A DNA stretch of 64,000 nucleotides from Mesostigma viride (Eukaryota; Streptophyta; Mesostigmatophyceae; Mesostigmatales; Mesostigmataceae): positions 217,657-281,656 of the forward strand of contig RPFO01001885.1 of NCBI GenBank assembly GCA_009746045.1. Reading direction: 5' to 3'. Positions 3,530-64,000 of this stretch are shown here, one piece after another (positions within the stretch are counted from its first letter, which is position 1; every line of letters begins with the position of its first letter). Under the pieces are notes generated by a model. The model worked only from the letters and a program-made list of their open reading frames with translations. It was not told where the DNA came from and made no database searches. The translations under genes and the position numbers were made by a program.

Positions 3530-3553
3530 TTATTATCTACCTAGAATATAAAC
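3530..3553. promoter_or_regulatory. Divergent intergenic region
   Basis: The AT-rich 24-bp gap separates the two opposite start codons at 3529 and 3554 and contains ATTTATTATC and AATATAAAC. Any promoter serving both genes must sit in or overlap this gap. No motif matches the TCTGAACAT element found elsewhere in the block. Confidence 0.3.
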
Positions 3554-4081: not shown

Positions 4082-4093
4082 AATGTCTTCAGA

Positions 4094-4978: not shown

Positions 4979-5000
4979 TTTTCTCTGAACATGATATACT
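4979..5000 (+). promoter_or_regulatory. Candidate promoter motif TCTGAACAT-TATAC, copy 1
   Basis: TCTGAACAT (4984-4992) followed by GATATAC lies directly upstream of the ATG at 5001. The same arrangement occurs upstream of the primase ORF at 6756-6773. Two copies at two gene starts suggest a viral promoter element, not proven. Confidence 0.35.
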
Positions 5001-6609: not shown

Positions 6610-6784
6610 ATAGTTTCCCGTGGGAAATTTTCATGAATGTCGAAAAGGGTATTCTAAACTGCATGCATTATACAGGGAATATAAAAGTTCCATGGGAACA
6701 TTTTTATCGAGGGTCGAGGTTCGAGGGGTTATTCTTTAATCGAAACTTTTTTTTTTCTGAACATACGGTATACAACCTTCCAGA
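6610..6784. promoter_or_regulatory. Intergenic region with candidate promoter motif, copy 2
   Basis: TCTGAACAT (6756-6764) plus GTATAC (6768-6773), behind a T-tract of about 10, precedes the primase ORF. Short dyads TTTCCC-GT-GGGAAA (about 6616-6629) and GTTCC..GGAAC lie just after the recombinase stop and could terminate or punctuate transcription. Confidence 0.35.
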
Positions 6785-9280: not shown

Positions 9281-10368
9281 ACGGACTACGGCACGATCGT
9301 CGAGAACATGATCGCGGGGGACACTGCGCTCATCCAGCTGCTGTTCGACAACGCCGACGTAGTCTGCGACTGGAGCGCGGACAAGTCGCGTATCTATGAC
9401 AGAAATTGCCCCAAGTTCCGTCTCTTCTGCCGGAACCAGCAAGATCTCGCGGTGTCGAGGTCCCACTACAAGGGAAATCTCATCAAGATACTGACGGAGG
9501 ACTACGGCGTGGAGGTGTCGGCTGTGGAGGAGTTGGGGGACATCGACGCCCCCCGCTTCCGGTACTAGAAGATCCGGACAAGGACAGGGAGGTGGTGCTT
9601 CTGAGCGAGGAGGAGTACAAGGATCTAGAGGGGAGAATCGGCGGCACGGTTCCACTTTCACCGTACGAAATGCGTCTGAAGGCGGTGTACGAATTGACTC
9701 ATCGGTTGTATGAGATTCCGTATGATCTCATCGACGACGAGCTCCCTCAAATTCTGGACAAGGAGATGGGGAGGAAGGCGTACGTTGGCGTTCGGCAATA
9801 TTCGAAGTTGACGGGACTAGGAACCAAGGAGCATTTCAGAGACAATCTGTTGATTCTGCAGAAGTCAGAGTCCTTGTTTGATTTGAAGGCGTATTCTCGT
9901 TTTGGACTAGCACAGTCTCTGGCCATTACGCTCAAGCTACTAGAAGGGACGCCTATCATCGACTTCATCACGACGGCTGATCCGTCCAATCTCACAATGA
10001 AGTTGACGCGCGACGAGACGATTGCACTAGGGAATAGAATTGACGGCGAAATTGCCGACAAGGCCTGGTTCATGCGCTCAACATTTGGATACCAACGGCG
10101 AGCAGGCGAGGCTGGTAGGTTGTCTTTTGCACAGTGTAGCGGGCTCGTCAACAGGTTGTTAAGCCCAACTCTGGGAATTTCTGCCAAAGGGTCAAAGGGC
10201 AACAGCCGTGGCGGTGGTTGCTTGGAAATTTCGAAGGCGGACATGCATGCGTTTCTTGATAGGTATAAACCCTCGTGGTGGGGCGATGAGAAGGATTATT
10301 CGATCACGTCGTTGTCTGGCCTGTCGATGGATGAAATCGCTCCTTTCCTGCATGGAGCGGATAAGTAA
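9281..10368 (+). pseudogene. C-terminal region of the viral primase-helicase
   Basis: Frame 2 is open from about 9284 to a TAG at 9566. Just before it, at a C6 run near 9550, the signal shifts to frame 1, which stays open to the TAA at 10366-10368. The C-terminal 270 residues are helical, with no motif I recognise. By position they would be the accessory domain of the same large replication protein (roughly 1,150 residues in total). The final coding frame ends just before the AT-rich TTTTAATATTTTTAAT, after which the block stops, so I place the right edge of the virus-derived DNA near 10.38 kb. Confidence 0.55.
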
Positions 10369-18257: not shown

Positions 18258-18355
18258 GTCCTATGAACTTCCCCTTCCTCAGAGACTTGAGTGGAAACTT
18301 TAAATTCAATAAAATACAACTTTTCAAAATGAACTACAAATTGCGTGTTCTAGTA

Positions 18356-19239
18356 CAAATCCAGACGAGCTTAGGGCTGAGGGCTGGCGCGCCGTCTGCG
18401 CCGAGTATGGCGTGCGGCAAGAGTTCTCGTCCCCCTATACGCCGGAGCAGAACGGCGTGGCGGAGCGATTCTGGGGCGTCGCAGTTAGCATGACCAGGAG
18501 CATGCTGGCGCATGCTGGCCTCGGCAAGGAGTTCTGGGCTCTATCCTTTGCATGCGCCATCTACATCATCAACAGGCTGCCCTGCCGCAGCAACCCGGAG
18601 CACGCAACGCCCTACTTCCTCATGTATGGGCGCCCTGCGGATTTATCCGGCATGCGTGTGTTTGGCTGCCCCTCCCACGTCTTGGTTGAGGGGGCAGCCC
18701 GTGAGAAGTTTGATTCTCGCGCTGAGGATGGCCTCTTCGTGGGATACAAGCTTGACTCCCCGGCCAACCTCGTATGGGTGCCCGACAAGGCGACGGGCGG
18801 CGGGCGTGTCATCGAGTGCAAGCACGTGCAGTTCGACGAGACGTGGCGCAACCGGGCCCCGCAGGCTGCGCAGTGGCTCCCGGCGGCCCCCTTTGCGGAG
18901 GCCGACCTCTTTCCCGCCGACATGCTGACTCCTGCCCCTTTGCAGTTACCCTCTGCCTGTGCCGCGGACTCTCGGGGGCAGGCAACGCCCTCCACCGCCT
19001 TGCCAGCAGGCCGTGAGGACAGCTATGTCAGCATCGGGGGGACTCCTGAGCGTTTCGTTCTCCCCCCGGCCGCCGCTGCGGCCATCCAGGCACTTGTGCG
19101 GAACGGCCCTGCTCCGACGGCTCCGGCTCCTACCTCGGCCCCGACATCTTACCTCACCGTGTCAGATGCTCGATCGACAGCATGCCCCTGTGTTGCGCGG
19201 GCAGGCCTCTGGCCACTCGCGTTCTGCGGCGTCATATGA
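18356..19239 (+). pseudogene. Copia-type integrase, 5' truncated
   Basis: The frame begins abruptly within the integrase core (DELRAEGWRAVCAEYG) and continues with PYTPEQNGVAERFW, whose Glu is the last residue of the DDE triad. This is followed by the typical Copia continuation: IINRLPC, TPYFLMYGR.PDLSGMRVFGC, and the GYK..S..LVW region. It runs on into a Pro/Ala-rich linker and stops at 19239. Upstream of about 18356 the frame is closed, so gag, protease and the first part of integrase are missing. Same element as the RT/RNase H fragment downstream. Confidence 0.85.
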
Positions 19240-19283
19240 ACACGCCGGGCCGGGGATGCCTCTGCCGCATTTGAGTACCTCAG

Positions 19284-21094
19284 TTGATCGACCTGGAGAG
19301 CACGGCTGACAGCACCGGCTATTCTCCTCCGGCGTCCCCTGGTGCATCTGCAGGTCTCCTCCCCGTGTGGGGTTCCCGTGGTGCTGCCTTGTGTGGCGAC
19401 CTTTCTCATGGCAGTAACACCCCCGCTCCCCCTGGTTTCGGGGGCGATGATGTATTGGATGACACGCTTTCTTCCTGGCCGGATCAACCTGTCACCAAGG
19501 CTGCACGGATCCACGCGCATCACTCACTTGTCGCCGACCTGTGCTTCGCTGCTGCTTTTCATAGCCAGCCTGCGTCCGTGCCCTCCTCTCCAGCTGCCGC
19601 CCTTGCCTCGCCGGAATGGGGCACGGCCATGGAGAGTGAGCTGGCCAGCCTCTAGGAGCACCAGGTTTACGAGCTTCTACATGTGCGTGATTTTCCGCGC
19701 GGTGCCAAGCTCCTGCCCACCAAGTGGGTCTTCGCCCAGAAAGCTGATGGGCGGTGCAAGGCCCGGTTCGTGTGCAAGGGGTTTGCACAGCGCGAGGGAA
19801 TTGATTTCGGTGAGACTTTTGCTCCCACCGTCCGTGCTGCCACCGTGCGCCTGGGCTTGGCTCGTGCTGGCACTGCTGGCCACCCCATCCGGCAGCTGGA
19901 TGTCCGCACCGCGTTCCTCTATGCTGCATGAGTTGGAGGAGGACGTGTATGTCCTTCCCCCCAAGGGCTTTGAGGAGCGCGACCCCACTGGCCAAACGTA
20001 CCTCTGGCGCCTCCGGCGGAGCCTCTATGGGCTCAAACAGGCGCCCCGGAACTGGCACCACACGCTCCGGGACTACCTCCTCCATGAGACTGGCGCTGTC
20101 CAGAGCACCACGGACACGTGTCTGTTCCTGTATGTTGGTGGTTTTGCCTTCGTCCATGTCGACGATCTCCTGGTATCCCACTCCTCGGCGGAGTGGCTAT
20201 CGCAGTGGACCCAACGGGTGTCCCAGCGCTTCCAGATCACCGAGACGGATGCCCCCTCCCTCTTTCTGGGGGTCTCCCTGGTCCTCGACCCGCCGACGCG
20301 CACAGTTTTTCTGCACCAAGGCCCGTAGCTGGAGGCCCTCGCTGAGCGCTTTGGGGTCTCCCCACGGGCGCGGTGAAGACGCCCATCGTCCCCAACACCC
20401 CCCGTGGTGAGGGGGGGCTTCTCAACGCGGACGACACTCGCGTCTACCAAGCGATCACCGGGGCACTCCTGTATGCGATGGGATGCACTCGGCCTGACCT
20501 GGCATTCGCAGTCAACCTGCTGACTCAGAATATGAAAAACCCTACTGTAAGCGACCTTGGGCTGGCACGCCGGGTGCTTCAGTACGCGGTACACACCAAG
20601 GACCTGGGTCTGTCCTTCACGGGGCAGGGGGGGCTGGTGGCCTACTCGGATGCCGACTGGGCAAACGATCCTGTGGACCGCAAGTCAATCACTGGCAACG
20701 TGGTCATGTACCGCGGTGCTGCGGTGGAGTGGACCAGCCGCAAGCAGCCCACTCCAGCCCTGTCCACCTGTGAGGCCGAGTACATGGCCCTGTGCGGTGT
20801 CACGCAGCAGGTGGTTCCCCTTCTCACCATCACCAAGGAGTTGGGTGATCCGGCCTCAGGGCCAATTCAGGTGTTTTGCGACAACACTGGTGCTGTGGCT
20901 CTGTCACGAGACCCTGTTCACCCTCGGCGTACCAAGCACATCGACGTCAAGTACCACTACATTCGCGCGAAGGTTGCGGATGGCACCGTTCAGGTGTCTC
21001 ACCTTCCTCGGGCAGCGATGATCGCCGACATGCTCACCAAGGCACTACCCGAGCCACGTTTTGTGGAGCTCAGACACAAGTTATTGGGTATTTG
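19284..21094 (+). pseudogene. Copia-type reverse transcriptase and RNase H, broken
   Basis: Segments in two frames make up the RT. KARFVCKGFAQREGIDFGET and QLDVRTAFLYA lie in frame 3 (about 19757-19931). VYVLPPKG, SLYGLKQAPRNW and the catalytic FVHVDDLLVS lie in frame 1 (to 20328, ending in TAG). RNase H resumes at 20373 with AYSDADWANDP.D.KS, LSTCEAEYMAL, VFCDNTGAVAL and KHIDVKYHYIR, to a TGA at 21092. An in-frame TAG at about 19653 and at least two frame changes make it inactive. The order integrase-RT-RNase H identifies Ty1/Copia. Confidence 0.9.
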
Positions 21095-21228
21095 AGTTAC
21101 TGGCAATTCGTGATGAGACAACATAAGGACACACTTGCTAGCCTGTGACAGGTGTCCCATACTACAGTTCTTTTATTTAGTGAACATTTGTTCTGGCTTG
21201 CTTGAGTTTGTTTTCCGGCCTGTGTGCC

Positions 21229-28742: not shown

Positions 28743-29179
28743 TCCATAGCCCGCTACTTGGTTTTGCCCGTCGTACCTGTTTTACTCGCGACAGCATGAA
28801 AACTTGGTTCAATTGGCTACGTTTGTAACGGTTCCCGCCACGCCTTGAATTATTTGCGGGTCAAGTTGGGTCAAGCATTGGCTTTCTGCTCCAAGCGTAA
28901 AAATATCTAGCCTTCCGAGCGGGTTGCAACTTCCGGACGCACGAATGCTATTATCGCCGAGCTCTGAATGATCGCCATGTCAGCGGCCCGCGCGTTCGAC
29001 CCGAGTTACTGGATTAGTTAATAGGATGGAAAGTGCTCTGTGGCCTCTCAACGGAGGCACGTGTGTAATTAATTAATAAGTTGGGGTTAATGCTCCGTGA
29101 CTCCCCAACGGGAGCACGTGTTAAATTAATTAATTATTTAGGGGCTAGGGCAACTTCATCAGAACACAGCCATGAGCGG

Positions 29180-29825
29180 TTGCTTGGTCATTGGGTTGAA
29201 CGTAATGTGCTTGGTCAGTATGGGAAACCTGTGCTCAGACAGGGGGTTAAACCCGTGGTTGGTCAGTATAGGGAACCGGTGCTTGGTCAGTGGGTGGAAC
29301 CCATGCTTGGTCAGTATGGGGAAACCGTGCTTGGTCAGTGGATGGAACGTGTCCTTGGTCAGTGGCTGGAACCCGTGCTTGGTCAGTGGGTGGAACGTTT
29401 GCTTGGTCACTATGGGGAACCTGTGCTTGGTCAGTGGGTGGAATCTGTGCTTGGTCAGTGGGTGGAACGTTTGCTTGGTCAGTATGAGGAAGCTGTGCTT
29501 GGTCAGTGGGTGGAACGTGGGCTTGGTGAGTGGGTCGATCGTGTGCTTGGTCAGTATGGGGAACCCCCGCTTGGTCAGTGGGTTGAGCCCGTGCTTGGTC
29601 AGTGGGTGGAATGTAGGCTTGGTCAGGATGGGGAACCCGTGCTTGGTTAGTGGTAAGAGCCCGTGATTGGTCAGTGGGTTGAACGTGCTTGATCAGTATG
29701 GGGAAGCCGTGCTTGGTCACTGGTGGGTGGGTGGAACCTGTGATTGGTCTCTATGGGGAACCCGTGCTTGGTCAGTGCGCGGAACGTGGTCTTGGTCAGT
29801 CGGGAGTGAGCGGTTGCTTGGTCAA
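29180..29825 (+). repeat. 24-bp minisatellite, about 26 units
   Basis: Units are variants of CTTGGTCAGTGGGTGGAACC plus GTG, with a second type containing CTTGGTCAGTATGGGGAACC. Because 24 is divisible by 3, all frames stay open, giving an 8-residue repeat (VLGQWVEP) on the plus strand and a TDQA-type repeat on the minus strand. I regard these frames as products of the repeat. Confidence 0.9.
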
Positions 29826-29899: not shown

Positions 29900-32690
29900 T
29901 AATGCTTTAATATAGTGATAATCAAGAATTCGAAAAATGCCCGCCTGAAGGTCCATTATCATGCAATTGATAGTCAAAATTAAAATCAAGATTAAATTCT
30001 TCTCTCGTCACCATCCCCTTCCTTACTCTCCCATACCACTTGGGCAGCCTAAGGTGCACCATATGGGGTGGTCCCACGGAGAATGGGGTAGATTTTTGCT
30101 ACAAAAAAAATGGTAATATCAGCCTCTTTAAATTTTCATTCGGCCGATCGTGAAAAATCGTGCGAAATCGTGCGAAATCGCGCAAAATTTGCTGAAATTG
30201 ACCAAAACCTGGCCGAAAAAGTGCGTATTCATGCCAAAAAGTTTGTTTGTTATAAAAATTACGACGTGTAAAAAATGCGTGAATTCATGTGAAATTTTTC
30301 AAGGGTCTCTGTGCAGTTAGAGCCTTCGTGTAAAATTATGCGATTTAAATTTCAATCTTGTGTATTCGTGTGAAATTGTGCAAAAATCGTGCGAAAATCA
30401 CGCGAAATTGTGCAAAGTTTTGCGGGCGTTCTCAAATCGCCAGAAAAAAAATTCGAAATAAAAAGTCGAAAACAGTGTTTTTTTGTAGCAAAATGCGCGA
30501 AAAACAACTCGATTCTCCGCGGGACCACCCTATCCTATAGCACAACAGGGGCAACCGTTTTGTACGCTGCGTTTCTAGAACAACCCTGCAAAATGAGTGT
30601 CATAAAATGAAACGTCTTCAAGAACCTTAGGCACTCCCTCGAAACTGTTTCGAACAACCTTTGTCGTCAGAGCCCTTCTTGGCTCGCGTCGGCGTAGGCT
30701 TCTTGGTCCTCAGTGCCAGATGAGTTATCACTTATCAAATATCGATATTCTCCTTATGGTCGGGCAATCTGCGCCAGCTCGGGCATCCAGTTTTGTTACG
30801 GGGCGTCTGCTGCCGCGTTTGCTGCGAATGCGGACGCGTTTAGTGGTCATATTTGCATGGAACATGGACCTTGTAGTCATGGCAGATCATGCATTATGCA
30901 GCTATGGCGGGCTGTGCCTGTAGAGTATTAGGATGTGTGAGATATGAGGGTTCCGGCCAGCAGAATCTGGTAAGGTCGTGATAGAGGCAGGTATGGCAAC
31001 GTATGTCATTTGCACGAAAATCTGTCGCTATTTGTCTTCACTTGACGAGTGTATCAGTGCCTCTTGCAGCAGCTGTTTCCATGCCTGCTGTATGAGTGGT
31101 ATGGGCCCCAAATGTGCTCAGTGTATGGTGTTTCTTGGAGTATACCATGCTGTCAGTGCAGGTTTGGCACCTTTTATTGTATCCCAGCACTTTTGGCAGT
31201 CCTATGTGGCTGCATACAAAGCATTATACAGTGACAGTGGCATGGCATGGACGCGCGCGAAACCCACACGCGTTAGTGAGCGTTCAGATCGGCTATCTGT
31301 GCGCGGTCTGACCCAAGGAATGCATGTTTGCACTATCCAATGACATTGTCCAATTTTGATAGCGAGGTTCTTGACCCTCCCTATAGGTGTAATATATAAT
31401 GAAGGTGCTCTTGCTTGCCTAAAAATGATTAACTTTTCGCCAACTTTGGCAGCAAGTTATGTCTTGCAAACCACTTTACGGCCTCATGATATTATTGCAT
31501 CTATTCTGAAAGCTGTAGATAGATAGATCTGGCATCTTAGTTGGGGGTATTTGGACTTGTGACCTATGGTTTATGATTTTTTCCATTTTCAGGGGTCTAA
31601 AAATGAAAAAAAAACATTCCTGGAGTACAAGTTGAAGGCCCCCGCGACTGTACGCCATGCAATAGGACCCTACTCTATCAATCCCTTCCGTTCGACACCA
31701 AAGATATCGGCGTCTTTGGGCCAAGGTGAGCCGAAGGCCTACATCCAGACGATCTCCAAAAGGCGCCGACTTTTGCCCAACGGAAAAGTCGCAAAGGACA
31801 GGTGGCGACAACGAGGGTACCTGAAAAGACCGCCGGAAGTACGAAACCTTTGCCACAGGATCCTTCGAAGGGGGACCTTTTTATTAGCAGAATATGCAGT
31901 ACGTTCTTGTGTTGATCGGCATCATCATGGGGCACGTAATCGATTTGGTTTATTGACAGTAGGTTGACAGTAGGTTATCATGCGTTTCAGGACCTGAGTT
32001 CAGGGAAGTTTTCACTCACCATTACATGCTTGATGGTGCCATAGACCCTAGCCAACTGCCTCACACTCATGCACTACGTGTGTGGGAAATGTATCAGAAA
32101 CATATATGGAAACATACATGGAGACCTCCATGTACGTTTCTGATACAAACCTACACAGCCTCCTGTATTCAAACCTACACAGCCTCTAACAATCAGCATC
32201 ATCACACTATGGCAGGTCAACTGACTGAGGGATTCAAGCATCTAAGAAGGGTGTTTTAGGAAGGGGCCAAGCCATGGTCAAGAAAGAGCATGAATAATGC
32301 AAAAAGAATGTGCTGCACAAGCTGGAACGTATATATAAACGTCAGACATCGATAAGAAAACGATGCTTCAGCTTTACCTGGCATGGCTGGCGTTACCTTG
32401 GCCCAGGCGGTGGCAGCGAAATGGCGCATTGCGGCACACCAAAGTTGTGCAGCATGGTCACTCTAGAGATTCGGCAATTTCTGGCCCCACCCTCGCACGT
32501 TTACGAGAACAACCCTTTACTAATCCCTCAATAATTGTCGGAAAGATCATTGCTGTCAGTGTTCTATCATCCCGGCGGCCTGATCCCATTTTTTACCGGC
32601 AAGAACGCTGCCGACACATATCAAATGGCATTCCCGCCAAACAAAAATTGGGCTATGTCATCTTTAGGACGTATAAAGTCTATTCCCTAA
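29900..32690. other. No supported gene; AT-rich with degenerate CGTGCGAAATC repeats
   Basis: 30140-30420 holds imperfect CGTG(C/A)GAAATC units. A 133-codon frame at 31566-31967 has protein-like stretches (ISKRRRLLPNGKVAKDRW) but no recognised domain. Its upstream 190 bp recur in inverted orientation at about 49800-49990, so it lies in a dispersed repeat. 32010-32260 resembles (inverted) 53480-53640. I see nothing else. Confidence 0.4.
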
Positions 32691-32695
32691 GTTAA

Positions 32696-34414
32696 CACGT
32701 CGTTTGTACCGACTCAGTCCTCTGGAGAGGACTGAGTTGACCAACTTTGAGATCATGTAGCAGAAAGGGCAGGAGGGTACCCCATATGTTTGAGGTGCCT
32801 AATAGCAGTTAATATCTTGCTCTGTGTCTGGAATATGTGTAAAAAATCATACATGGACCGGATCATGTCGAATTTTACTCGGGTGTTGACCCTTACTCGC
32901 GATTTGGCACTTTTTGATGTATAGGTGTGTATGAAAAAAATAAATCAATTCCATATGCATGCACAAAAATCTTAAACATGTGCAAAATAAAGTTCTTGAA
33001 ACGTGGCAAAAAACTGGGCTCAATTTGGCCACTGCCACTGCCTGAAACACGCCAAAAACTGCCAGTCCTCTGGAGAGGACTGAGCCTTTGCTAGCAAAAT
33101 GCTAGCATGTAAGTGCGGTCATACTACACACCACCGTGGCCACCAACCATCCCAATCAACTCATTTCCCTTCAAGCATAACAGGACAACACACTTGCGTC
33201 ATCATATTGCAGTTATACTATATACCTTATCATGTGTGAGAGCCTATGCCTGCACGTAGGGAATGGGTTTGGATACCTACCAACAAAGGGTTATATTATA
33301 AGTGTCAACCACCAATATAATGGGTAGATTAAGCATAGTTCATTTGTTTCTAACATAGATATGGCTAAAACTGTTTTGCATTGCCATGGTGTGGCCAACA
33401 TAGTTGCTGGCACCTGATGGCAGTGGTTTATCACCAAGACTTTTCACTCACCCGCGTAAGCTTGAAAGCACCCTTGATGCAACCCATGGCCACATAACCA
33501 TGCAGTATAAACGAAGCATAGGAATAACTAACATCTATGAAGGTGTTCAAACCTGTACAGCTCCTAAAAACCTGCACAACTACACTGGGGTCAGGCAAAC
33601 GCCTGGTAACATCATCTGAAAATGGGGTTTTAGAGAGGGGCAGGCAACGGTCAAGAAAGAGCATCAAGACTTGAACCTGACAACTCCTTGCAAGCTTACA
33701 CTCATGTACAAACATTAAGAAGCGATGAGGCGACGATATTCCAGCTTTACCAGGCACGGACGGCGTTACCTTGGCCCAGGCGGTGCCCGCAAAACTGGCA
33801 CTTTGCGGTACACAAACCATGACGTGACAGAGAGGTCGAAATCATCAAATCTATGCTTGCCACTCAATTTATTCTAATACTATGCACGATAAAGGTAGAA
33901 AGAAACCTATAAACCCTCGAACTTGCGCTGGAACGCAATCACAGTCGTCAATTCCGTCGACCTGTCTGATCGCAGTTTTTTCTAGCAAGAACAGCGCCGA
34001 CACCTGCTTAATCGAATCCCCGCTAGCCAAAAGTTGAGTTGTATCATCTATAAGACATATAAAAGCTATTTACTGAGTTTGGCCAGCTAACTCTTCCGCA
34101 AACGTAAACTGCATGCATGGGCGCAAGCCGCCATGGCTAGGTCGTGCATTTCCGGAACGCACGTTTCACGGGAAAAAGTACCCTTACCACCTGTACTTTG
34201 ACTGTACATTTGACCGCTCATACCAAATCCAAAAAAATCCCAAAAATATGTCCAAGAAAGATCTTTTCACGTAGTATTTGAATAAATTTTGAGAGAATTT
34301 TTTTGTCAAACATTCTGACCGGGGCGAATTTTCTACGAAACCCAAAAACTCGATCCTCTGGAGAGGACTGAGTTCAACTCAGTCCTCTCCATAGGACCGG
34401 ATACAAACGACGTG
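32696..34414. mobile_element. piggyBac-type MITE, 1,719 bp, copy A
   Basis: TTAA flanks both ends (32692-32695 and 34415-34418). The 13-bp terminal inverted repeat CACGTCGTTTGTA is perfect. Just inside each end sits a CTCAGTCC/GGACTGAG palindrome (32713-32736; 34351-34385). The body matches, in reverse orientation, the element at 38639-40358, which has almost the same length, and the truncated copy from 58650. No ORF of significance. TTAA duplication is diagnostic of the piggyBac superfamily; the element must be mobilised in trans. Confidence 0.88.
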
Positions 34415-38638: not shown

Positions 38639-40358
38639 CTCGTCGTCTGTCCCTGGTCCTCTACGGAGGACTGAGTTGAACTCAGTCCTCTCTAGAGGAC
38701 CGAGTTTTTGGGTTTCGTAGAAAATTCGCCCCGGTCAGAATGTTTGTCAAAAAAATCCTCTCAAAATTTATTCAAATACTACGTGAAAAGATCTTTCTTG
38801 GACATATTTTTGGGATTTTTTTGGATTGGGTATGAGCGGCTAAATGTACGGTCAAAGTACAGGTGGTAAGGGTACTTTTCCACGTGAAACGCGAGTTCCG
38901 GAAATGCACGACCTAGCCATGGCGGCTCGCGCCCATGCATGCAGTTTACGTTTGCGGACGAGTTAGCTGCCCAAACTCAGGAAATAGATTTAACATGCCC
39001 TAAAGATGATAAAAATCAATTTTTAGCTCGCGGGGATGCGATTTACCCGGTGTCGGCACTGTTCTTGCTGGAAAAAACTGCGATAAGGCAGGTCGACGGA
39101 ATTGATGACTGCGCTTGCTTTCCGGCGTAATTTCAATGGCTGATAGGTTTCTTTCTACATTTTAACATGCATTGTATAAGAATAAATTGAGTGACAGTAT
39201 AGATTTGATGATTTCGACCATTCTGTCACGTCATGGTCTATGTGCCGCAAAGTGCTACTTTTGCTGGCACCGCCTGGGCCAAGGTAACGCCAGCCATGCC
39301 AGGTAAAGCCGGATAATCGTTGCCTCTTCGTTTCTTGATGTTCGTACATGAGTTTAAGCTTGCGAGGCGTTGTCAGGTTCAAGTCTTGGTGCTCTTTCTT
39401 GACCGTTGCCTGCCCCTCTCTAAAACCCCCTTTTCAGATGATGTTAGCAGGCATTTGCCTTAACCCAGTGTAGTTGTGCAGGGTTTTAGGAGCTGTGCAG
39501 GTTTAAACACCTTCGTAGATGTTAGTTACTCTCTTGCTACGTTCATACTGCATGATTGTGTGGCCACGGGCTGCGTCAAGGGTGCATTCAAGCTTTTACG
39601 GGTGAGTGAAAAGTCTTGGTGACAAACCACTGCCATCATGTGCCAGCAACTATGTTGGCCACATCATGGCAAGGCAAAACAGTTATAGCCATATCTATTA
39701 TTGTTAGAAACAATGGAAATATGCTTAACCTACCCATTATATTGGTGGTTGACACTTATAACAAAACCCTTTGTTGGTAGGTATCCAAGCCCATTCCCTA
39801 CATGCATGCATGGGCTCTCACAACATGATAAGGTATGATATACCTGAAGTATGATGATGCAAGTGTGTTGTCCTGTAATGCTTGAAGGGAAATGAGTTGA
39901 TTGGGATGGTTGGTGGCCACGGTATTGTGTAGTATGACCGCGCTTACATGCTAGCAAAGTTAGCAAAAGCCCCATTCCTCTCCTGAGGACTGAGAGTTTT
40001 TTAATTGTTTCAGGCAGTTGCAGTGGCCAAAGTGAGCCCAGTTTTTTGCCACGTTTCAAGAACTATATTGTTTACATGCCTATATTTTTTCTTCATGCAC
40101 CAGGATTTGATTGAATTTTTCCCACTCGTTCTTATCCCGAAAAATGCAAATTCGCGAGGGGTGCCCAACGTCCGTATAATTTTCAGGTGTTCGGGTCAAG
40201 TTTTCACATATGCAGTATTTTTGCCAACAAAATGACATCTAGTACACCCCCGATCCACATCAAAACATTTGGGATGGACCCCCCACATAGTCGCAACACG
40301 CGGTTGAAAATTGTCAACTCAGTCCTCCTGTGAGGACTGAGTTGGGACAGACGACGAG
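38639..40358. mobile_element. piggyBac-type MITE, 1,720 bp, copy B, nested
   Basis: TTAA lies at 38635-38638 and 40359-40362, with the perfect 15-bp terminal inverted repeat CTCGTCGTCTGTCCC. The body is the reverse complement of copy A (32696-34414), with many substitutions. It sits at bases 4-7 of the left terminal repeat of the 5.4-kb element, separating CCC from the rest. Palindromes GGACTGAGTT-N-AACTCAGTCC (38668-38688) and CTCAGTCC...GGACTGAG (40318-40341) mark its two ends. Confidence 0.9.
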
Positions 40359-41378: not shown

Positions 41379-43581
41379 TATGACGCGCGCCTCTTGCTCT
41401 TCAGAGCACGCCGCCTCGCGGCCCCTGTCAGCAGCCCAGCACCCTCTGCAGCCCTTGTGGTGCGCCCGTTTGACTCAGCCCACTCCCTGCCAGCCGCGCT
41501 ACGGCGCGAGAGGGGCAGCTGGGCGCGCTGCTTCAGGTCGCCCCCGTCCAGGCCGGTCAGCAGCCCCGAGTGGTACACGTTCCAGCAGGAGCCCACGCAC
41601 AGCGCCGTGTCGCAGTCCCTGCACCAGAAGTTGGTGCGCTTGCGCACCTTCTCGACTGCGCACACCATGCACTGCGCCTGTTCCACGAAGGGGATGCGCT
41701 CTGGCTCCAGGTGGGTGCCGGTGAGGCGGTCGTCACGCCCGGGACGGTGGATATGTGGCTCAGCGAGGAGAGCCGCCATCCTGCCGCCTGTCCACTGATT
41801 GGTGCACAGCTCGTCGGCAAGCTTGCTCAAGAAGCCAGCATGGCTGAACACATCAGCGCGGCCAGTGTGGGTGAGCTTGTGCAGGATGAAGGCGTTGGTG
41901 ACCGAGTTGGCCAGGTGGCCAGTTGCAGCCCTGTGCCACCAAATGCGCGTCACGAGCGCATCCCGCACACGGTATTCAGCCATGAACTGGTCCTGCAGGT
42001 CCACTGCCTTGTAGGTCCCCCAGTAGATCGGCACCAGGCTGGGGGCAGGCACCGTGATGCGAATGTCGTGCCCCCCGTGGCGGCTGACCTCCACCTTGGT
42101 GAGGGGGATCCCCTTGGACGCGATCCACACCGTCTACCTGTCCTGCCACGCCACGAGGGTGAGCCCATCCTGATCGACAGCCCACGCGTAGTCCCCCTGC
42201 TCCGGCCTGCGCCCCAGCTGGTCCTTGACCTCCTTGAAGGGAAGCCCGCGCCGGTTGGGCATGATAGTGCCCACCACCTGGTGGCCCTGCAGGTCGTGGA
42301 GCTCCTCCAGCATGTGGCGGCTGGTGTAGAAGCGGTCGGTGGCGATCCTGCATGGGTGCGGCAGCTCGCCCGCCAGCATCTTGGTGATCTTGAACGTGTG
42401 CTGCTCCTCGGGCAGCTTGTCGTAGGTGTGCGCGTGGTAGAGGTAGCCCGATGGCCAGTCGCAGATGCAATACTGCTTGATGTGGAACGGGGACGGCTTG
42501 GTCGGGTTATAGCACCGGATAGGGCACAGCTTGTGCCGCGACGAGATGGATCGCTCGTCCATGGCAGCTTGCTCCCCTGGCACGAAGTACTTCTTGTATG
42601 CTGCATTCAGCAGCTCCTCCAGCCAGAGGAACTGGAAGAGCCTCCACTCGCGTGTCTGGCGGTTCTCAGGGCGGTCTGCGGTGTTCCTGAAATGGAGATA
42701 GCGGCAAATCTGGTCAAACCTCTGTTTAGCCATGACCTGCTGCAGGTTGACAGGAGCTGCAGCACCCATGGGCAGCCCAGTAAAGTAGTCTCCCCTTGCA
42801 GGAAGACGCTCCAGAGACATGGTGATGATGATGCCCAAGAACTTGCCGAGCTCGTGGATAGTCATCGGTGTCCATTCCCGAGCTCCAGGCTTGCCAGCAG
42901 CTTGCTGCTGTTCAGCATACGGGTTGGTCTCAGCAACGATGGGCTCGAGCACAGTCTTGGGATCCCAAAACAGAAGGAACAGCTCAAGAGGACCGAACCT
43001 GTGCGCACGGCCGGGAATGTTCTTGTATGTTGCCTTGCCGTCAAACGGCGCAGGTATCTCGGGCAGAATTCCATCCTCAGGCTTTCCTGACCCGAAAATC
43101 CAGTCACTATCCTCCTGAGCCGCACCGTCATCAGGCTGCTCCTCATCATCGGAATCGACCAGGTCTGGCACCTCGTCGGCCTGGTCCTCATCAGCGCTGC
43201 CTTCGGAGTTGTCATCGTCTGCAACCGGGGCTGGCTGCAGCCGACGCCTTCTGGGTGGATTCCGGAGTGCCGGTGCTCTGGCCGCAGGGCCAGTCTTGCG
43301 CTTGGCACGCTTCTTGACCGGGCTCTGCCAAATATCCTCACTGTCGCCATCGCCAGGCGAGGGGGGGTCAGATCCGTCGGCGGCACCCCCCTGCACCCCA
43401 CGTCGTCAACATCACCATGCACGGCGGCATCGCCATCATTCTCATCGCCACCGTCACCATCTACCGAGCCTGCAGCCTCGGCGACCTTCCACTGATAAAC
43501 CTGCGCCTTGGTGAAGTCGTATTTCTTCGGATCGCCCTCGAAAAGGCATTTCGCGATAGTGCATGCGCGGTTCAGCGACAA
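41294..43581 (-). pseudogene. piggyBac transposase (DDE), one frameshift and one in-frame TAG
   Basis: The N-terminal frame starts at 43581 (MSLNRACTIAKCLF, acidic tail) and passes at a G-run near 43385-43395 into the frame that carries the catalytic core. The core shows the first catalytic Asp in AMDERS (42557) followed by CYNPTKPSPFHIK. The second Asp is in ATDRFYTS (about 42337) and the third in YKAVDLQDQF (about 41990). A TAG at 42134-42136 interrupts between the second and third Asp; the frame continues unchanged after it. The C-terminal Cys-rich domain (C..C......C..C....C...C..YH, about 41570-41660) is the zinc-binding tail typical of piggyBac. The last roughly 28 codons (41294-41378) come from the inserted mariner-like MITE. 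Restored length would be about 720-730 aa, somewhat longer than the insect enzyme. Confidence 0.9.
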
Positions 43582-50939: not shown

Positions 50940-51548
50940 CGTGTATCCATTGCTCCCACTCCACCAACTTCTTATTGAAAACATTAAGTGGTCGCTTAAA
51001 ATGGACAGCAAAATGGCGTCCCCTGCCATTTGCAGTTCTCCGAGCAAAGTTTGCGAATCCCCAAGACAACAAAACACAGGGAGGGTGGGTGGGCAAGAAA
51101 AAAGACCTTCCCCTTCCTCGCAAGGCCCCTAAAAAGACGACACAACACGCTACATGGCAACGCCCCTAAAAAAATCCCAGCCTTACTGACACAACTAATG
51201 TCAGACCGGCAACTACGAAATGTCAGCAAAATGATTCGAGTCATGAAACTTTTAACTACACTAGTCGCCAATCAAGAGCAGTTTCAGGCCAGCATACAAA
51301 ATTAAAAGGCCTTATAAATACGACCTTTTTAACCGCCTGAACAACAATGAAAACTGCCCGTAACTAATCACCCAGCTACAAAATCCAAACTGATTATCAT
51401 TTGCTAAAAACGGCCCTAGTCGCCGGCCATGCCAGCGAAACTGGAACCCCAAGAGCGTGCCACGTAATCTTTGCCGCCGTCAGGAACACTTCGATTGCGG
51501 CGTTCGTTCTCGCCCATTATAAGAAACTATTTTCAGAGAAATCCAATT
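50940..51548 (+). mobile_element. Rolling-circle-like repeat, third subfamily, 609 bp
   Basis: Starts CGTGTATCCATTGCTCCC, contains CACCAACTTCTTATTG and TTAAGTGG near its 5' end, like the other subfamilies, and ends TTTTCAGAGAAATCCAATT. It is followed at once by the 5' 117 bp of another copy (51549-51665), head-to-tail. It sits inside the piggyBac-like module at CAAAACATCTT. Confidence 0.65.
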
Positions 51549-51694
51549 CGTGTATCCATTGCTCCCACTCCACCAACTTCTTATTGAAAACATTTAGTGG
51601 TCGCTTAAAATGGACAGCAAAATGGCGTCCCCTGCCATTTGCAGTTCTCCGAGCAAAGTTTAGCGAATCCCCAACTCCCCCACGCCTGGCTGAC

Positions 51695-51991
51695 TCAAAG
51701 CCGCTCCCCTCTCTCCCAGGACCGCGTGTCCATCGAGAATGCCCTGCCGCAATGGACCCCGTTTTCAATGAACTCCCAAACGGCAGCCTTGGCCGGCTTT
51801 GAATCACCATCCCCCTCGTCCCCACTGTTGTCGGGGCCAGTAGGCTCCTCGTCCCCACCGTCATTGTTGTTGGCATCCTCATCTAACTCCAAGCCAGCAA
51901 GATGTCGTGCTCGGGCCTCTTCGTACTCCGACTCTGACATGTCATCGTAGTTTATTCCGAGGTCAGGTTCCTTGCCTCGACCGTGCGCCAT
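51695..51991 (-). CDS. Acidic protein N-terminus, fragment
   Basis: The ATG at 51991 opens MAHGRGKEPDLGINYDD followed by a strongly acidic, Asn/Gly-rich stretch (DEDANNNDGGDEEP). The acidic start resembles the N-terminal region of the piggyBac transposase at 43.4 kb in composition, but not in sequence I can align. The frame is cut at about 51690 where the repeat begins. Probably a captured or broken transposase or host-gene exon. Confidence 0.3.
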   Translation of the reverse strand: MAHGRGKEPDLGINYDDMSESEYEEARARHLAGLELDEDANNNDGGDEEPTGPDNSGDEGDGDSKPAKAAVWEFIENGVHCGRAFSMDTRSWERGERL

Positions 51992-52180
51992 CGCTCTACT
52001 TTCCAGGCAGCTAGTAAATGCCAGCACTGTGCTACTGCACGGTAGACAGGCGGCAGCACCTTTTGCATGTTTAGTGTTAGCGGCCTCAAGCCTCAGCTTC
52101 GGTAGCGGCGGTTACTTTGGGCGTGCAAGGCTGTCGGCTGCATGAGCTGCGCCAAAACTAGCTCTGGCGCCAAATTCCGG

Positions 52181-58380: not shown

Positions 58381-58649
58381 ATGGAAGGGGAGCCACTGAT
58401 GCGAGATGAAATAGAGCTTGGTGCTGTGATTGTAATCAGGTCGATTATGCCTCTAGCAGACAAGTATTATGGATGATATGGCCTAATTGTTGAGGCCCAG
58501 TTTGTGGCTGCGGAGTGAACCGTGACAGCTTTTGCGCTTGCCCTGAGAAGGTCTAGGCTCTCCTACCTAGGAGAGATCTGTGATTGTGGACGGTTCTGCA
58601 ACCAGCAATATCTGAAGTAAACTCGACAATGCCAAGAAAAGCTAGTTAA

Positions 58650-59926
58650 CACGTCATACGTGCAAACTCAGTCCTAAAAATAGGACTGAGTATGCCAACT
58701 TTGAGATCATGTAGCGGTTAGGGTAGGGCGGTACCCCATATGTTTGATATGCATAATAGCACTCAATATCATGCTAATGCTTGGGCATATGCAAAAAAAT
58801 CATACATTTACCAAATCATGTAAAATTTTACTAGGGTGTGGACCCTTGCTCGCGATTTTGCATTTTTTTGTGGAAGAACGATTGGGAAAAATTGAATAAA
58901 TTCCATATGCATGTTAAAAAAATAGGCATGTAAAAAATATAGTTGTTGACCTGTAGGAAAAAAACTGGACTCAATTTGGCCACAGGCACTGCCTGAAACA
59001 CACAAAATACTGCCAGTCCTATAATAGGACTGGGCCTTGCTAGCAAAATGCTAGCATGCAAGTGAGGTCATACTACACACCACCGTGGCAACCAACCATG
59101 CCAATCAAGTGATTTCCCTTCTAGCATAACAGGACAACATGATTGCATCATCATATCGCAGTTCTATGATACCTTAGTATGTGTGAGAGCCTATGCATGC
59201 ACGTAGGGAATGGGCATTGATACCTACCTACAAAGGGTTGTAGTATAAGTCTTAACCACCAATATGATGGGTAGGTTGAGCATATTTCAATTGTTTCTAA
59301 CAAGAATAGACATGGCTAAAGCTGTTTTGCTTTGCCATGACATGGCCAACATACTTGCTGGCACATTATGACAGTGGTTTATCACCAAGACTTTTCACTC
59401 ACAAGTGTAAGCTCGAAAGCACGCTTGATGCAGCCCATGGCCACACAATCATGCAGTATGAACGTAGCAAAAGAAGAACTAACACCTATGAAGGTATTTA
59501 AACCCATTAAGCGCCTAAAAACCTGCACAACTACACTAGGGTAAGGCAAATGCCTGGTAACATCATCAAAAAAGGGTGTTTTAGAGAGGGGCAGGCGACG
59601 GTCAAGAAAGTGCTTCAAGACTCGAAACTGACAACGCCTCACAAGCTTAAACTCATTCAAGAACATCAACAAACGATGAGGCAACGATATTTCAGCTTTA
59701 CCGTTCACGGATGGCGATACCTTGGCCCAGGCGGTGCCCGCAAAAGTGACACTTGCGGCACACAAACCACGACGTGACAGAGTGCTTGAAATCATCAAAT
59801 CTTTACTGCCACTGACTTCATTCTACGAAAACGCATGATAACTAGTAGAAAGAAGCATATAAACCCTTCGACCTGCGCCGGAAAGCAGTTTTAGTCATCA
59901 ATTCCGGCAACCTGCCTGATCGCAGT
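58650..59926. mobile_element. piggyBac-type MITE, copy C, truncated
   Basis: TTAA at 58646-58649 followed by CACGTCATACGTGC opens a copy of the 32696-34414 element, in the same orientation, with palindromes at 58667-58690 (TAAAAATA centre) and 59013-59033 (TATAATA centre). Similarity stops at about 59926 (CGCAGTTTC), where the sequence leading to the Ty3/gypsy element begins. Confidence 0.8.
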
Positions 59927-60077
59927 TTCCACCAACCTGCCAAAGAGAAGCAAATAGGGTGAGAAGTGAGCAAGCGAGTCCTGTGTGCTCATCCAATACA
60001 CCATGGTAATCCATGGGACTGCACGGTCCTACTCAGCAGCCTTGGTGCTGCGTAAGCCCACTTGCGTAGTGCCGGCT

Positions 60078-60545
60078 TCACGGTTTGCACAACTGTTTCG
60101 CTAGCCCGTTGGCTTGAGGGTGCTCCCGTGACGTGTGACGGTGATCAATGCAGCACTTGTCTAAGATCTGCTGGAATTGGCCGCGGAACTCCCCACCTTG
60201 GTCGGTGATGACCTCCGCTGGCGCACCATAGCGCTCCATGAGTACAAGAAATCTGGGCAGTGGTTGCAGCATGCTTGTCAGCTGAGCGGAATGAGTTCCA
60301 GCCACTTGCTTAAGGCCTCGACACACACCATGATGTAGCGATTGCCCCGGGTGCTGGTCTCAAATGGGCCACATAGGTCCACATGCCAGCGATAGAACCA
60401 CCCCCGAATGGGCAGGTTCATCAACTCTTTCACACCATGATCCACATGAAACCTGGCCTTGGCCCGCGCACACTCGGCGCACGAGGCAACATGCACGGCA
60501 ATGGACTTTCGCATGACAGCCCACCAATAAACACGGCGCACCATC
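60078..60545 (-). pseudogene. Ty3/gypsy integrase, frameshifted
   Basis: Minus-strand fragments in two frames give RRVYWWAVMRKSI..HV..C..CARAK (zinc-binding and linker region), WHVDLCGPFE (first Asp), VITDQGGEFRG (second Asp) and SREHPQANGLAKQ (Glu). This is the retroviral-type integrase that follows RNase H in Ty3/gypsy elements. It is broken at about 60300. Confidence 0.85.
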
Positions 60546-61270
60546 GCCTCGCGGTGCGCTGGCTCCCAAGATGACCAAAACGCTCATGGTACGGGGAAAT
60601 AATGCCCGCGCGTTGGGACGGTGAGGGCACCACCAAGCGGCGCCTGCCGAGGAGCCGGAAAAGCTGCTTGCCATCCAAGAGCAGTTCGCTACCCGTTGCT
60701 GGACACGGCTGCTCTCGGCCTGCACCTGCGCTGCGTTCCGATCCGCACGCGTAGCGGTGACTGGCAGGTCCTGCAGCCGATCAAGGACGTGGGCGTCCAA
60801 CCACACATTACCTGCGCAGCACTCCACCACCGCCGCGCCCAGGGCAACGGCCTGCACCACCACCCTGGCGATGTTAGGCGCAGCTTCGCTTGGCCATACA
60901 ACTGGTGGAGTGGAGCCCATGGGGGCCAAAGATTGGGAGGGGTTGAAGGCAGGAGGGCGCACGGGGTCCGTGTATGCACCGTAGTCAGCAACCCCATCCA
61001 TGATGGGCAGCCATTGGTCCTCGTCGCACCTGCCAGCCGCTCCCACAAACATAACGTGGCCCTGGGCCCCCTCCACGCCAAGCGCACAAGCGTCCGTCCT
61101 GTCCGCCGTGGTTGCAAGCGCGTATCGTGAGACCACACGTGTCGACATTGGAATGATCCACACCAGCGCGGTGGACGATGGTCATGTGGTACTCCTGCTG
61201 ATGATCATGGCCCAGCGGGCCGGTGAGCTTGTCATGGGTCATCAAGCAACGCAGGGGCTGATGGTCCGTG
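60546..61270 (-). pseudogene. Gypsy pol segment between RNase H and integrase
   Basis: The end of RNase H (EYHMTIVHRAGVDHSN, about 61170-61190) is recognisable. The rest is an Ala/Arg/Gly-rich connector readable in shifting frames, with no further motif. Confidence 0.5.
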
Positions 61271-61272
61271 AC

Positions 61273-62170
61273 CTATGTAAACTGGCGCCCATAGACGTAC
61301 GAGCAGAAGTGTTGCACTGCCCACACCACGGCTAGCGCCTCCCCCTGATACGAGCTGTACCGGGACTCAGCATCATTGTTGTTGCGGCTCGCATAGGCCA
61401 CAACGTGTTCCGGTCCACTGCCGACCAGCTGCGCCAGCACGGCACCAAGGCCCACCTTACTCCAATCCGTATAGAGGATGAAGGGCTGGCCATAGTTGGG
61501 TGCGCGCAGAATGGGTGCAGAGGTCAGCTCTTCCTTGAAGGTGGCGACGGCGCGCTGCTGCGCCGGTCCCCATGACCACACGGCTCCCTTTTTGAGTAGC
61601 TCGGTCAATGGCCGCACCTTAGTGCTGAAGTTGGGGATACAGCCACGATAATAACCGGCCAACCGGAGGTTGCTCGAACGCCAGAGACGTCCGTGGGTGC
61701 TGTGGCGTTGACAATGGCTTCCACCTTGGCCGTATGCGGCATGCGCCCACCGGGTACCAACTGGTGCCCCAGAAACTCCAGTAAGTGGTGCGCACACTTG
61801 CATTTCTCGGGGTGTAAGCGAATGTTGGCCCGATCCAACGCCACACGGACCTGCTCGAGATGTTGCAGGTGCTCCACGAACGTGTTGCTGAATACAAACA
61901 CATCATCGATGTAACATGCAGCGTGTGGGATGCGCTTGAGCACCTGGTCCATGGCGCTTTGAAATACTGCGCTGGCGTTGCGGTGGCCAAAAGGCATGCG
62001 GACGCACTCGTATAGTTGATGACCCCCCCGAAACGCCAATTTGTGCTGGTCCGCGTTCTCCACGGGGATCTGGTGGAACCCGCTCCTCAGGTCCAGGGAT
62101 GAGATGAACTTCACACCGGGACTGATGCGATCAAAGAGGTCATCCACCCGCGGCATCGGATAGTGGTCCG

Positions 62171-62225
<55 letters not shown>

Positions 62226-62600
62226 GAGCACCCGCAGATCCGTCGCCATGCGCATGCCTCCATGCCCCGGTAACCGGATCCTTTTTGGGAGCCACCACGG
62301 TGGCCCCTGCATAGCTGGAGTTTGAAGGCCGGACGAGGCCACGCGCTTCCAACTCGGCGCAAGTTGGATCGGTCGGTGCTGCACGAACTCGATTTCGGCT
62401 TGGCTGAGTCGGTGCTGCTTGCGGAATAAAGCTTGGTCCGTACCCAGGGGAACTCGCATCTTGCCACCGTTGTACAGTAACAGCCGAGCTCCTCGTTGCT
62501 GAGCGCAAACATCCCGCGCTCGCCCGCTAGCCACTGCTGCAGCTGCACACACTGCTCGGGTGTCAACTGGTCACCGATGTTCAATTGGTGCTCGCGGGCG
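61273..62600 (-). pseudogene. Ty3/gypsy reverse transcriptase and RNase H, frameshifted
   Basis: RT starts near 62590 with QLTPEQCVQLQQWLAGERG, the usual leader. It continues in shifting frames with SNSSYAGATVVAPKKD (about 62320), DLRVLN, ADHYPMPRVDDLFD, FISSLDLRSGFHQI and MPFG..NA.A.FQ. The catalytic YIDD is about 61910. LKKGAVWSWGPAQQ.A and the RNase H signature ILYTDWSKVGLGAVLAQ follow in another frame, with YSSYQGEALAV. A long (GT)n microsatellite lies inside the palm coding part. At least four frame changes make the copy inactive. Confidence 0.9.
62172..62225. repeat. (GT)n microsatellite within the RT coding region
   Basis: About 27 uninterrupted GT units; on the minus strand it encodes a Thr-His run between RVLN and ADHYPMPRVDD. 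An even number of dinucleotides that keeps the frame would be needed in an active copy. Confidence 0.95.
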
Positions 62601-62961
62601 CTGGCGTTGTAGGCCCGCACCGCTGGTCCGCTTACGACCGCCGCGCGAAATAAGCTGTAGGCTGCCGCTCTTGGTGTGACTGCGCCTGCCGAGGCTGCGC
62701 GCGCCAACACCATCCGGAACGCCGGCGTTGCCGCCATGATGCAGCTCGTGAGTAAGGCGGTCATCAGCACCACCGACCACACTTGGCGCCATGACCGGGA
62801 CCACTCTGTGCCATACCTCGATAGCAGCCCACGCGGTGTGGCGCGCCCCCGTGTAATGTGTGCAAGCCCTGCCCCTTGGGCAGGGCAGCCTGCGCGTCCA
62901 AGCTTGGTTGCCGGGATCGAGGTTCTCGCACCTGTTGCGCTGCCAGCAGCAGATACCCTAC

Positions 62962-63925
62962 CTAACGCACCGACATCGCTTGTCCAATAAGCGACCATCC
63001 TGATCCGCCTCAAGCACGCCGGATGCTGCGGAGGCTCCTTCCATGAAGCCAATGCTGAGCTCGTCAAACTCCGAGGGAGGTTGCACCAAATTTCCCGTGT
63101 TGCGGTCTAGCACCAGGCCCCTGCCGCGGTCGCAATAGGCGGCGGACCCTTGGTAGCTGTCAAGGGTGCGTACTGCAAGCATGGGTGCGCCCTCCTTGTT
63201 GACCTGAGCGCCGGGCGCACGATCATCATGCTCAACCTGTTGGGATGTGAGGTGACTGGGGAGCAAGACATCCACTGGTGGCAACTCCACCGGTTTCGTG
63301 TGTGTGAGCACTTGCCATGCAGTGGTGCTTGGTTGGCAAGGTTGGTCCACCATGCGCGTATTCGATGTGAGTGTCCACCCAGCCCGGCATTGTCGGTCAC
63401 CACAGGTTCCCGCAGGATTCCCGTGATGGTTTGCCAATCTTTGCGCACAGCGGCCACCGGGTGACCCGCCGCCACCACATTCTCGAAGAGGTATGCGACC
63501 GGTGATGCTTGGAGCTGCTGCAGTTCCCCCACTACCCGTAGCATCTCCCAGAAGAGTCCACCGCAGCTATCTGCCAGCTCGCAACCCTTCCCAGCCTGAC
63601 TTATGCCCTTGCACTCCCAGCCTGCAATAACCAAGCCAATATGCCCGTGCCTCTCCACCATGCAGCTGGCTGAGCTCTTCGTGGCCCAGCATGTGCACAT
63701 CCTGCACGTACTGGCTAAACGGGTTCCCTGGGCAGGCCGCTCGGGAAACTGAGTTGCGTGATGCTTGGACAACATCGCGCAGTTGTGGAGGTAAACCCGT
63801 TGTGCCATCAATGGCTCAACCGTGATGATCCTCTTGCACAAGTCACTCGCGCTGAGAAAGCCCCCGCCCATGCCCGAAGAGCTTGAGGATGGTGGTCCCC
63901 GTGGTGAAGTCGGGAACATTGTGTC
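62962..63925 (-). pseudogene. DNMT3-like cytosine-5 DNA methyltransferase carried by the gypsy element
   Basis: Reading the minus strand towards RT, and allowing frame changes, the C5-methyltransferase motifs appear in order. Motif I is ILKLFG.G.G (about 63873-63896), followed by an acidic VEP (63811-63819). Motif IV is AGWECKGISQAGKG, with the candidate catalytic Cys codon at 63611-63613. Motif VI is FENV (63476-63487). HSHRIRAWWTNL is motif VIII-like (63340-63372). A target-recognition-sized gap is followed by FDELSIGF (motif IX region, about 63045-63071) and LIGQAMSV (motif X, about 62965-62990), ending in TAG at 62962-62964. The FENVVAxG phrase points to the DNMT3/DRM side of the family. 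Motif IV has Glu where the family usually has Pro before the Cys. At least three frame changes are needed. Position directly upstream of RT on the same strand indicates it belongs to the retrotransposon. Confidence 0.75.
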
Positions 63926-64000
63926 AAATGTTCTGTCAATGCGGTGGAGGAGGAAGATCTTAAGCCTTCGACTTTGGAATTAATTAATGTATCACCAACA
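63926..64000. other. Right edge, element continues outside the window
   Basis: AT-rich end with no assignable feature. The 5' part of the minus-strand gypsy element (LTR, Gag) would lie beyond 64000. Confidence 0.4.

Follow-up and report, generated by a model that had tools for sequence, protein, structure and literature searches.

A decayed DNMT3-type cytosine methyltransferase in a Ty3/gypsy retrotransposon of Mesostigma viride and its intact relatives with split repeats

The window (the whole stretch of 64,000 nucleotides of Mesostigma viride DNA analysed here) holds, on its minus strand, one dead, 3'-truncated gypsy locus with a decayed cytosine methyltransferase (MTase). An earlier note on this DNA had placed C5-methyltransferase motifs I, IV, VI, VIII, IX, and X in this order on the minus strand at 62,962–63,925. 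Using the intact Pol of a related element (family A, see below) as a tblastn query, we located all six motifs in order, and the proposed span proved correct to about 30 bp (motif places 62,930–63,893; Table 1). The copy is frameshifted as the note had said, with its motifs retained over three frames and motif I itself split by a frameshift; it should therefore make no enzyme. Frame 63107–63979 (-) matches PF00145 with an E-value of 1.1e-5 and 25.4 bits over profile positions 63–112 (curated cut-off, 22 bits), and its best solved relative in a PDB search is DNMT3A (E 2.1e-4). With the family-A query, Pol residues 121–1422 appear in order over window 63,859–59,936 in three frames, and the piece bearing the MTase scores 280 bits; when the interval 59,000–64,000 was put through 20 single-base shuffles, no match exceeded 30 bits.

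Table 1. Features of the gypsy locus in the window (numbering of the 64,000-nucleotide stretch).
Feature	Position	Strand	Evidence
Methyltransferase domain of the family C copy (C5-cytosine, DNMT3-type), decayed; motifs I–X spread over three frames	62930–63893	-	Pfam PF00145, PDB, tblastn with intact Pol A
Motif I, AdoMet site; a frameshift separates TILKLF from SGMGGG	63860–63893	-	tblastn
Motif IV, GWECKGIS, including the catalytic Cys (GWECQG[ML]S in families A and B)	63599–63622	-	tblastn
Motif VI, YLFENVVA	63470–63493	-	tblastn
Motif VIII, HRIRAWWTNL	63338–63367	-	tblastn
Motif IX region, another frame	63135–63179	-	tblastn
Motif X region, two frames: ELSIGF (63,045–63,062) and VGYLLLAAQ (62,935–62,961)	62935–63062	-	tblastn
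(AC)n run interrupting the reverse transcriptase	~62,172–62,225		read in the sequence
Reverse transcriptase (YIDD at 61,890–61,913)	61758–62264	-	RVT_1 E 1.9e-27, residues 103–271 of ORF 61605–62570; tblastn
RNase H	61276–61572	-	RT_RNaseH_2 E 1.1e-32, residues 111–209 of ORF 61273–61902
Integrase zinc-binding (H2C2) region, two frames	60452–60675	-	tblastn to Pol A 1176–1216; Integrase_H2C2 E 3.4e-7 in ORF 60278–60583
Core of the integrase with a portion of its C-terminal region	59936–60451	-	tblastn to Pol A 1218–1422; rve matches below cut-off
Another repeat of the window, adjoining the cut 3' end of the element	58644–59928		self-comparison: copies at 32,690–33,978 and 39,075–40,158

The pieces behind the MTase follow the Ty3/gypsy Pol order, reverse transcriptase (RT), RNase H, and integrase, which is also that of the intact families A and B. 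The window copy is truncated at about 59,936, in the C-terminal region of the integrase, and has neither a PHD finger nor repeats; since the window stops at the end of the contig (length 281,656), the gag side lies outside it. DNA of this copy occurs at three places in the assembly, in contigs C280 (the window), C1, and C1572, at 99–100% identity, and the next matches are only 67–71% identical. We dropped the idea that C1 and C1572 carry further retrotransposition copies, because collinearity between C1 and the window is still seen 12 kb further along (C1:9463000–9463700 matches window 51,470–52,171 at 99.4%) and C1572 overlaps the end of the C280 contig. The simplest and more likely reading is that the three copies are alleles or duplicate contigs of one locus, the alternative being a segmental duplication.

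Intact relatives of the decayed element are present in the same genome. A search of the 439.9-Mb assembly with the window MTase scored 135 of 438 candidates, each with E < 1e-48. The nearest proteins found with this MTase, P0001 and P0002, bear M. viride names and resemble family A by eye. Family B has a single ORF of 2,074 residues, in which Pfam recognizes the MTase (residues 550–690), RT (1079–1243), RNase H (1306–1435), H2C2 (1625–1681), rve (1702–1794), and a PHD finger (2005–2049). In family A, a gag ORF of 1,081 residues lies ahead of a pol ORF of 1,642 residues with the MTase (107–249), RT (648–812), RNase H (900–1004), H2C2 (1192–1249), rve (1269–1361), and PHD finger (1572–1616). The ranges are those of Pfam, and the family-A MTase domain itself extends to about residue 425. 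All of these domains exceed their cut-offs in the intact A and B ORFs, PF00145 with 42.1 bits in B and 40.8 bits in A (cut-off 22). The N-terminal side of the family-B ORF contains a zinc knuckle below the cut-off and a weak protease match. No aspartic protease exceeds the cut-off in either family (the best E-value in B is 0.1, and A has no listed match), and we infer its place before the MTase from the weak match in B and by eye in A. In another family, E/F, the MTase and RT are within one ORF of 1,247 residues in the stretch examined.

The MTase is located at most 1.5 kb upstream of 28 of the 40 scored family-A RTs and within 13 kb of six more, which argues that it belongs to the element. 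The remaining six RTs have no MTase in the scored list, and for at least two of them (in C998 and C876) a same-strand PF00145 match lies 4–10 kb away. At three of four further Mesostigma loci (L064–L066), the MTase precedes the RT on the same strand; the stretch of the fourth (L067) contains no visible RT motif. Had the window copy been the only one available, broken as it is and with its parts in differing frames, an MTase brought beside a gypsy element by chance, through nested insertion or as a host gene fragment, might have been entertained. The intact copies with the MTase and RT in one ORF refute this explanation, and together with the co-occurrence and the order and strand at the three further loci they make it exceedingly improbable. 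The proposal that a C5 methyltransferase resides inside a Ty3/gypsy pol gene is borne out by these observations, and the intact copies of the element recovered from the same genome keep the segment.

Families A and B appear to have spread recently, as indicated by identical MTase copies and near-identical paired repeats. Of 314 candidates for the family-A MTase, 40 were scored and 18 of these are identical over the whole query; for family B, all 40 scored of 315 candidates are identical (the query is included in both counts). The two repeats of single copies are 99.8–100% alike in C2100, C1690, and C133. Part of the identical copies may be duplicate contigs.

Divergence among the families suggests that the MTase domain is under purifying selection. 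Families A and B are 67% identical over this domain, 38.5% over the linker behind it, and 50.5% over the segment that separates RNase H from integrase; the values for RT, the integrase core, and the PHD finger are 82%, 73%, and 73.5%, respectively. Among families A, B, and F, the MTase dN is 0.19–0.30, and dN/dS is 0.10 in the one pair for which it could be computed, the synonymous sites of the other two pairs being saturated. Families A and B retain the motif I glycines, the catalytic Cys, Glu-Asn in motif VI, and R-x-R in motif VIII, and the Cys is present in the aligned rows that span motif IV.

The residue before the catalytic Cys is unusual. A Pro at this position is usual in C5-cytosine methyltransferases, though not needed for a PF00145 match. 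Families A, B, E/F, and C and the metagenomic protein P0007 have Glu instead, the motif reading ECQ, or ECK in the window copy; Pro is kept in P0003–P0006, P0008, and most metagenomic rows. The presence of ECQ (ECK in the window), and not PCQ or PCN, means that catalysis may be altered. This raises the alternative that the MTase persists in the element because it does something besides methylating DNA, such as binding of nucleic acid or AdoMet in the particle or methylation of the element RNA, with ECQ marking lost or changed catalysis. The Glu substitution, the lack of a clear CpG depletion in the elements (see below), and the missing signal of a related MTase in yeast (also below) are in favor of such a role, whereas the retained catalytic and AdoMet-site residues and the conservation of the domain along its length speak against it. 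We regard it as unlikely, though worth keeping in mind.

Profile, tree, and structural comparisons agree with the earlier description of the enzyme as DNMT3-like, and support its assignment to the DNMT3 type, which it resembles more than it does DNMT2, DRM, or bacterial enzymes. A profile of the MTase searched against PDB gave E-values of 1.9e-25 for DNMT3A, 5.8e-16 for a DRM-type enzyme, and 4.8e-11 for M.HhaI. In the phylogenetic tree, DNMT3A, the gypsy-type MTases, and three further rows lie on one side of a branch with support of 95/96; the seven Mesostigma rows group together (100/100), and the gypsy-type MTases, 17 in number, make up a single group (90/91) separate from DNMT3A and the phage and bacterial rows. 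The tree includes a single cellular DNMT3 (human), DNMT1 and native algal DNMT3 being absent from it. The structure model of a metagenomic relative, not itself a Mesostigma protein, fits DNMT3A/3B best, with M.HhaI about 2 Z units lower. The Mesostigma enzymes share with the DNMT3A/DNMT3B catalytic domain the un-permuted motif order and a similar motif VIII (HR-R-FW-N), in addition to the best profile and fold match. They differ from it in having ECQ in place of PCN and in lying within a Pol polyprotein, where a PHD finger at the C-terminal end takes the place of PWWP-ADD, and the modelled relative is 19–24% identical to DNMT3A/DNMT3B in the rows shown.

The profile search found 56 proteins at E ≤ 1e-5 among the best 7,994 candidates (those with the most shared words). 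One of them, P0041 of Klebsormidium nitens (E 1.5e-27), has a tail that resembles the start of an RT by eye. P0041 groups with P0008–P0011 (100/100), apart from the Mesostigma rows (100/100), and thus belongs to a different MTase subclade; in P0008, a weak protease match is followed by the MTase. P0007 is a gypsy Pol with a PHD finger in which the MTase, whose PF00145 match alone is below the cut-off, is located between RNase H and integrase, showing that the position of the MTase within Pol can change. P0039, a 159-residue EukProt entry under the name of the dinoflagellate Prorocentrum lima, matches the end of the family-B MTase at 98% identity, with 27% of the query covered, and reflects either contamination or horizontal transfer. 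A viral origin of the MTase was considered and rejected: the 19 IMG/VR loci found have phage-type motifs by eye, and the seven of them included in the tree fall outside the gypsy-type group. With P0007 as the IMG/VR query, no loci were found. The Mesostigma genome also contains another C5-MTase ORF in ten equal-scoring copies (161.1 bits; C35, C47, C64, C79, C340, C389, C815, C1517, C1809, and C1935, seven of which are L002–L008), and the tree places L002 among the bacterial and phage sequences. Further repeated C5-MTase classes score at about 140–149 bits.

The repeats of families A and B are split. Family A is composed of A1 (1,127 bp), the coding region, a purine tract, B1 (136 bp), A2 (1,127 bp), and B2 (136 bp), and the corresponding repeats of family B are 1,139 and 143 bp long; both families have the plan A-coding-B-A-B, which is DIRS-like. 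The ends of integrated family-A copies read TGTCGCG...CGCGACA, and the junction of B with A falls in the palindrome CGCGACAGCTGTCGCG, of which the genome has 179 occurrences. Two integrated forms were observed, a long one (A-coding-B-A-B) and a short one (A-coding-B). Among 17 copies looked at, all seven in which both ends were found are flanked by 4-bp target duplications, CTTG, TCTC, AGTT, and GGCC for the long form and AACC, CGGA, and TACT for the short form; in the case of CGGA and TACT, the left flank had served to predict the duplication ahead of retrieving the right end. The other ten copies are truncated, in tandem, or not at the predicted place, and one of them (B_C133) has the structure BA-coding-BA and no visible target duplication. 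Rechecking seven family-A copies at the right end gave two short forms with the predicted duplication, one B-then-A structure, and four copies with no end there. The joint of A2 and B2 differs by a few bases among copies, in the manner of joined cDNA ends.

The Mesostigma families thus resemble DIRS/PAT retrotransposons in their split direct repeats and A-coding-B-A-B plan, and differ from them in their DDE integrase, TG...CA ends, and 4-bp target duplications. DIRS elements use a tyrosine recombinase and are not known to make target duplications. The 4-bp duplications around two integrated forms suggest that elements of families A and B integrate from circular DNA; linear cDNA with the same ends as the substrate is an alternative reading. 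If circles are used, the canonical cDNA would be BA-coding-BA, and circles with one or two repeats would be opened by the integrase at the palindrome where B meets A. HIV-1 integrase is reported to cleave a retroviral palindrome (PMC1905944), and a spumavirus integrase to cleave 2-LTR circles (PMC1180852). The end structures provide unusually clear genomic evidence on integration by a gypsy element with DIRS-like repeats.

An element of this kind is already known. According to the text available to us of PMC5890265 (de Mendoza et al. 2018), KnitGypsy-Dnmt3 of Klebsormidium nitens has a gypsy pol gene with a conserved DNMT3-type MTase, occurs in intronless multiple copies, and has the repeats of a DIRS element; its MTase gave no methylation signal in yeast, a test that the authors call inconclusive. 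The K. nitens protein P0041 is within our gypsy-type tree group. Families A and B have the same plan, an MTase in gypsy Pol together with split repeats, and family C shows only the MTase–Pol part of it. P0041 belongs to another MTase subclade than the Mesostigma families. These families carry ECQ and a PHD finger, and the term PHD does not occur in the main text of PMC5890265. The same text describes SymbioDIRS-Dnmt3 and SymbioLINE-Dnmt of Symbiodinium, which are likewise retrotransposon-borne cytosine MTases, those of SymbioDIRS being of DNMT3 type and methylating CG in yeast; their carriers are a DIRS element with a tyrosine recombinase and a LINE, not a gypsy element with a DDE integrase. 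Retrotransposon-borne DNMTs are also mentioned in the accessible parts of PMC6338049 and PMC12344493. No account of the Mesostigma elements was found in a literature search that mostly covered papers available without subscription, and the word gypsy does not occur in the available text of the Mesostigma genome paper (PMC6947507). What is new here is the Mesostigma families themselves, their PHD finger, the ECQ catalytic motif, and the 4-bp target duplications around two integrated forms. With them, the known range of transposon-borne DNA methyltransferases reaches a streptophyte alga that branches early, where the families are intact and occur in many identical copies. In a host reported to be CG-methylated, they constitute a living system for asking whether and why a transposon methylates itself.

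The likeness between the Mesostigma and Klebsormidium elements may have arisen by parallel capture of similar host DNMT3 genes. Independent capture was proposed for dinoflagellates versus charophytes in the part of PMC5890265 available to us, and two of our observations fit it, namely the differing motif signatures (GWECQG/FENV in Mesostigma and SSPCQGLSRANR/FEMVDA in the P0041 group) and the position of the MTase in P0007, which does not precede the RT; the tree, with its single cellular DNMT3, also leaves room for it. On the other hand, the 17 gypsy-type MTases form one group, and split repeats are common to the Mesostigma families and the published KnitGypsy. Independent capture is thus a possibility that we take seriously but consider the less probable course of events.

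M. viride DNA is reported to carry 5mC, mostly at CG (PMC6947507, in the text available). The elements display no clear CpG depletion as a footprint of self-methylation, with CpG observed/expected ratios of 0.78 (A), 0.85 (B), and 0.82 (C) compared with 0.84 in the rest of the window. Changes of CG to TG/CA amount to 17 of 80, and those of GC to AC/GT to 26 of 177. The TG+CA values are 1.50 (A), 1.36 (B), and 1.48 (C) versus 1.18, an increase that could hint at deamination or reflect base make-up. When the three contigs carrying the window locus are compared with one another, 6 of 21, 1 of 11, and 4 of 9 substitutions are CpG transitions. These transitions and the TG+CA values could hint at methylated, deaminating CpGs, although methylation by the host would look alike.

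By sequence, the PHD finger has its nearest counterparts in BAZ2B, CHD4, BAZ2A, and KDM5D. Several of these PHD fingers read unmodified H3K4, as does the ADD domain of DNMT3. A plausible course is that the MTase would be produced within Pol, between protease and RT, and carried with the RT in the particle, where it might methylate the new double-stranded cDNA of the element before integration. The new copy would then enter the genome resembling host-methylated DNA, and the PHD finger could tether the integrase, and perhaps the MTase as well, to chromatin of a given histone H3 state. Taken as a whole, we favor, with some reservation, the reading that the window contains a dead family-C copy of a gypsy group with a DNMT3-type MTase in Pol, that this MTase probably methylates the cDNA, and that the group is of the same kind as KnitGypsy-Dnmt3.

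A more far-reaching scenario joins these elements in one old streptophyte-algal gypsy lineage that would have taken up DNMT3 before the split of Mesostigma and Klebsormidium. One- or two-LTR circles, marked by the element's own MTase, would be opened at a 16-bp palindrome inside the repeat (between CGCGACAG and CTGTCGCG in family A), giving TG...CA ends and 4-bp duplications, and a PHD finger of the type that reads unmodified H3K4 would pick the chromatin. So many parts would have to hold together that we offer this scenario as speculative and, in its entirety, rather improbable.

Other mobile and virus-like sequences are present in the window. On the plus strand, 3545–10368 is an ORF cluster like that of an endogenous DNA virus, with a Pox_A32-type ATPase just below the cut-off at 4082–4978 (E 1.2e-4) and a Herpes_ori_bp-type helicase at 8101–9024 (E 3e-15); the other ORFs scanned in this cluster gave no match. 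Copia-like integrase and RT pieces lie at 18313–21095 (+) (SH3_retrovirus E 4e-16; RT by eye), and a piggyBac-type transposase at 42134–43405 (-) (DDE_Tnp_1_7, E 8.7e-41). The stretch 29069–29750 is a tandem peptide-like repeat with several frames open.
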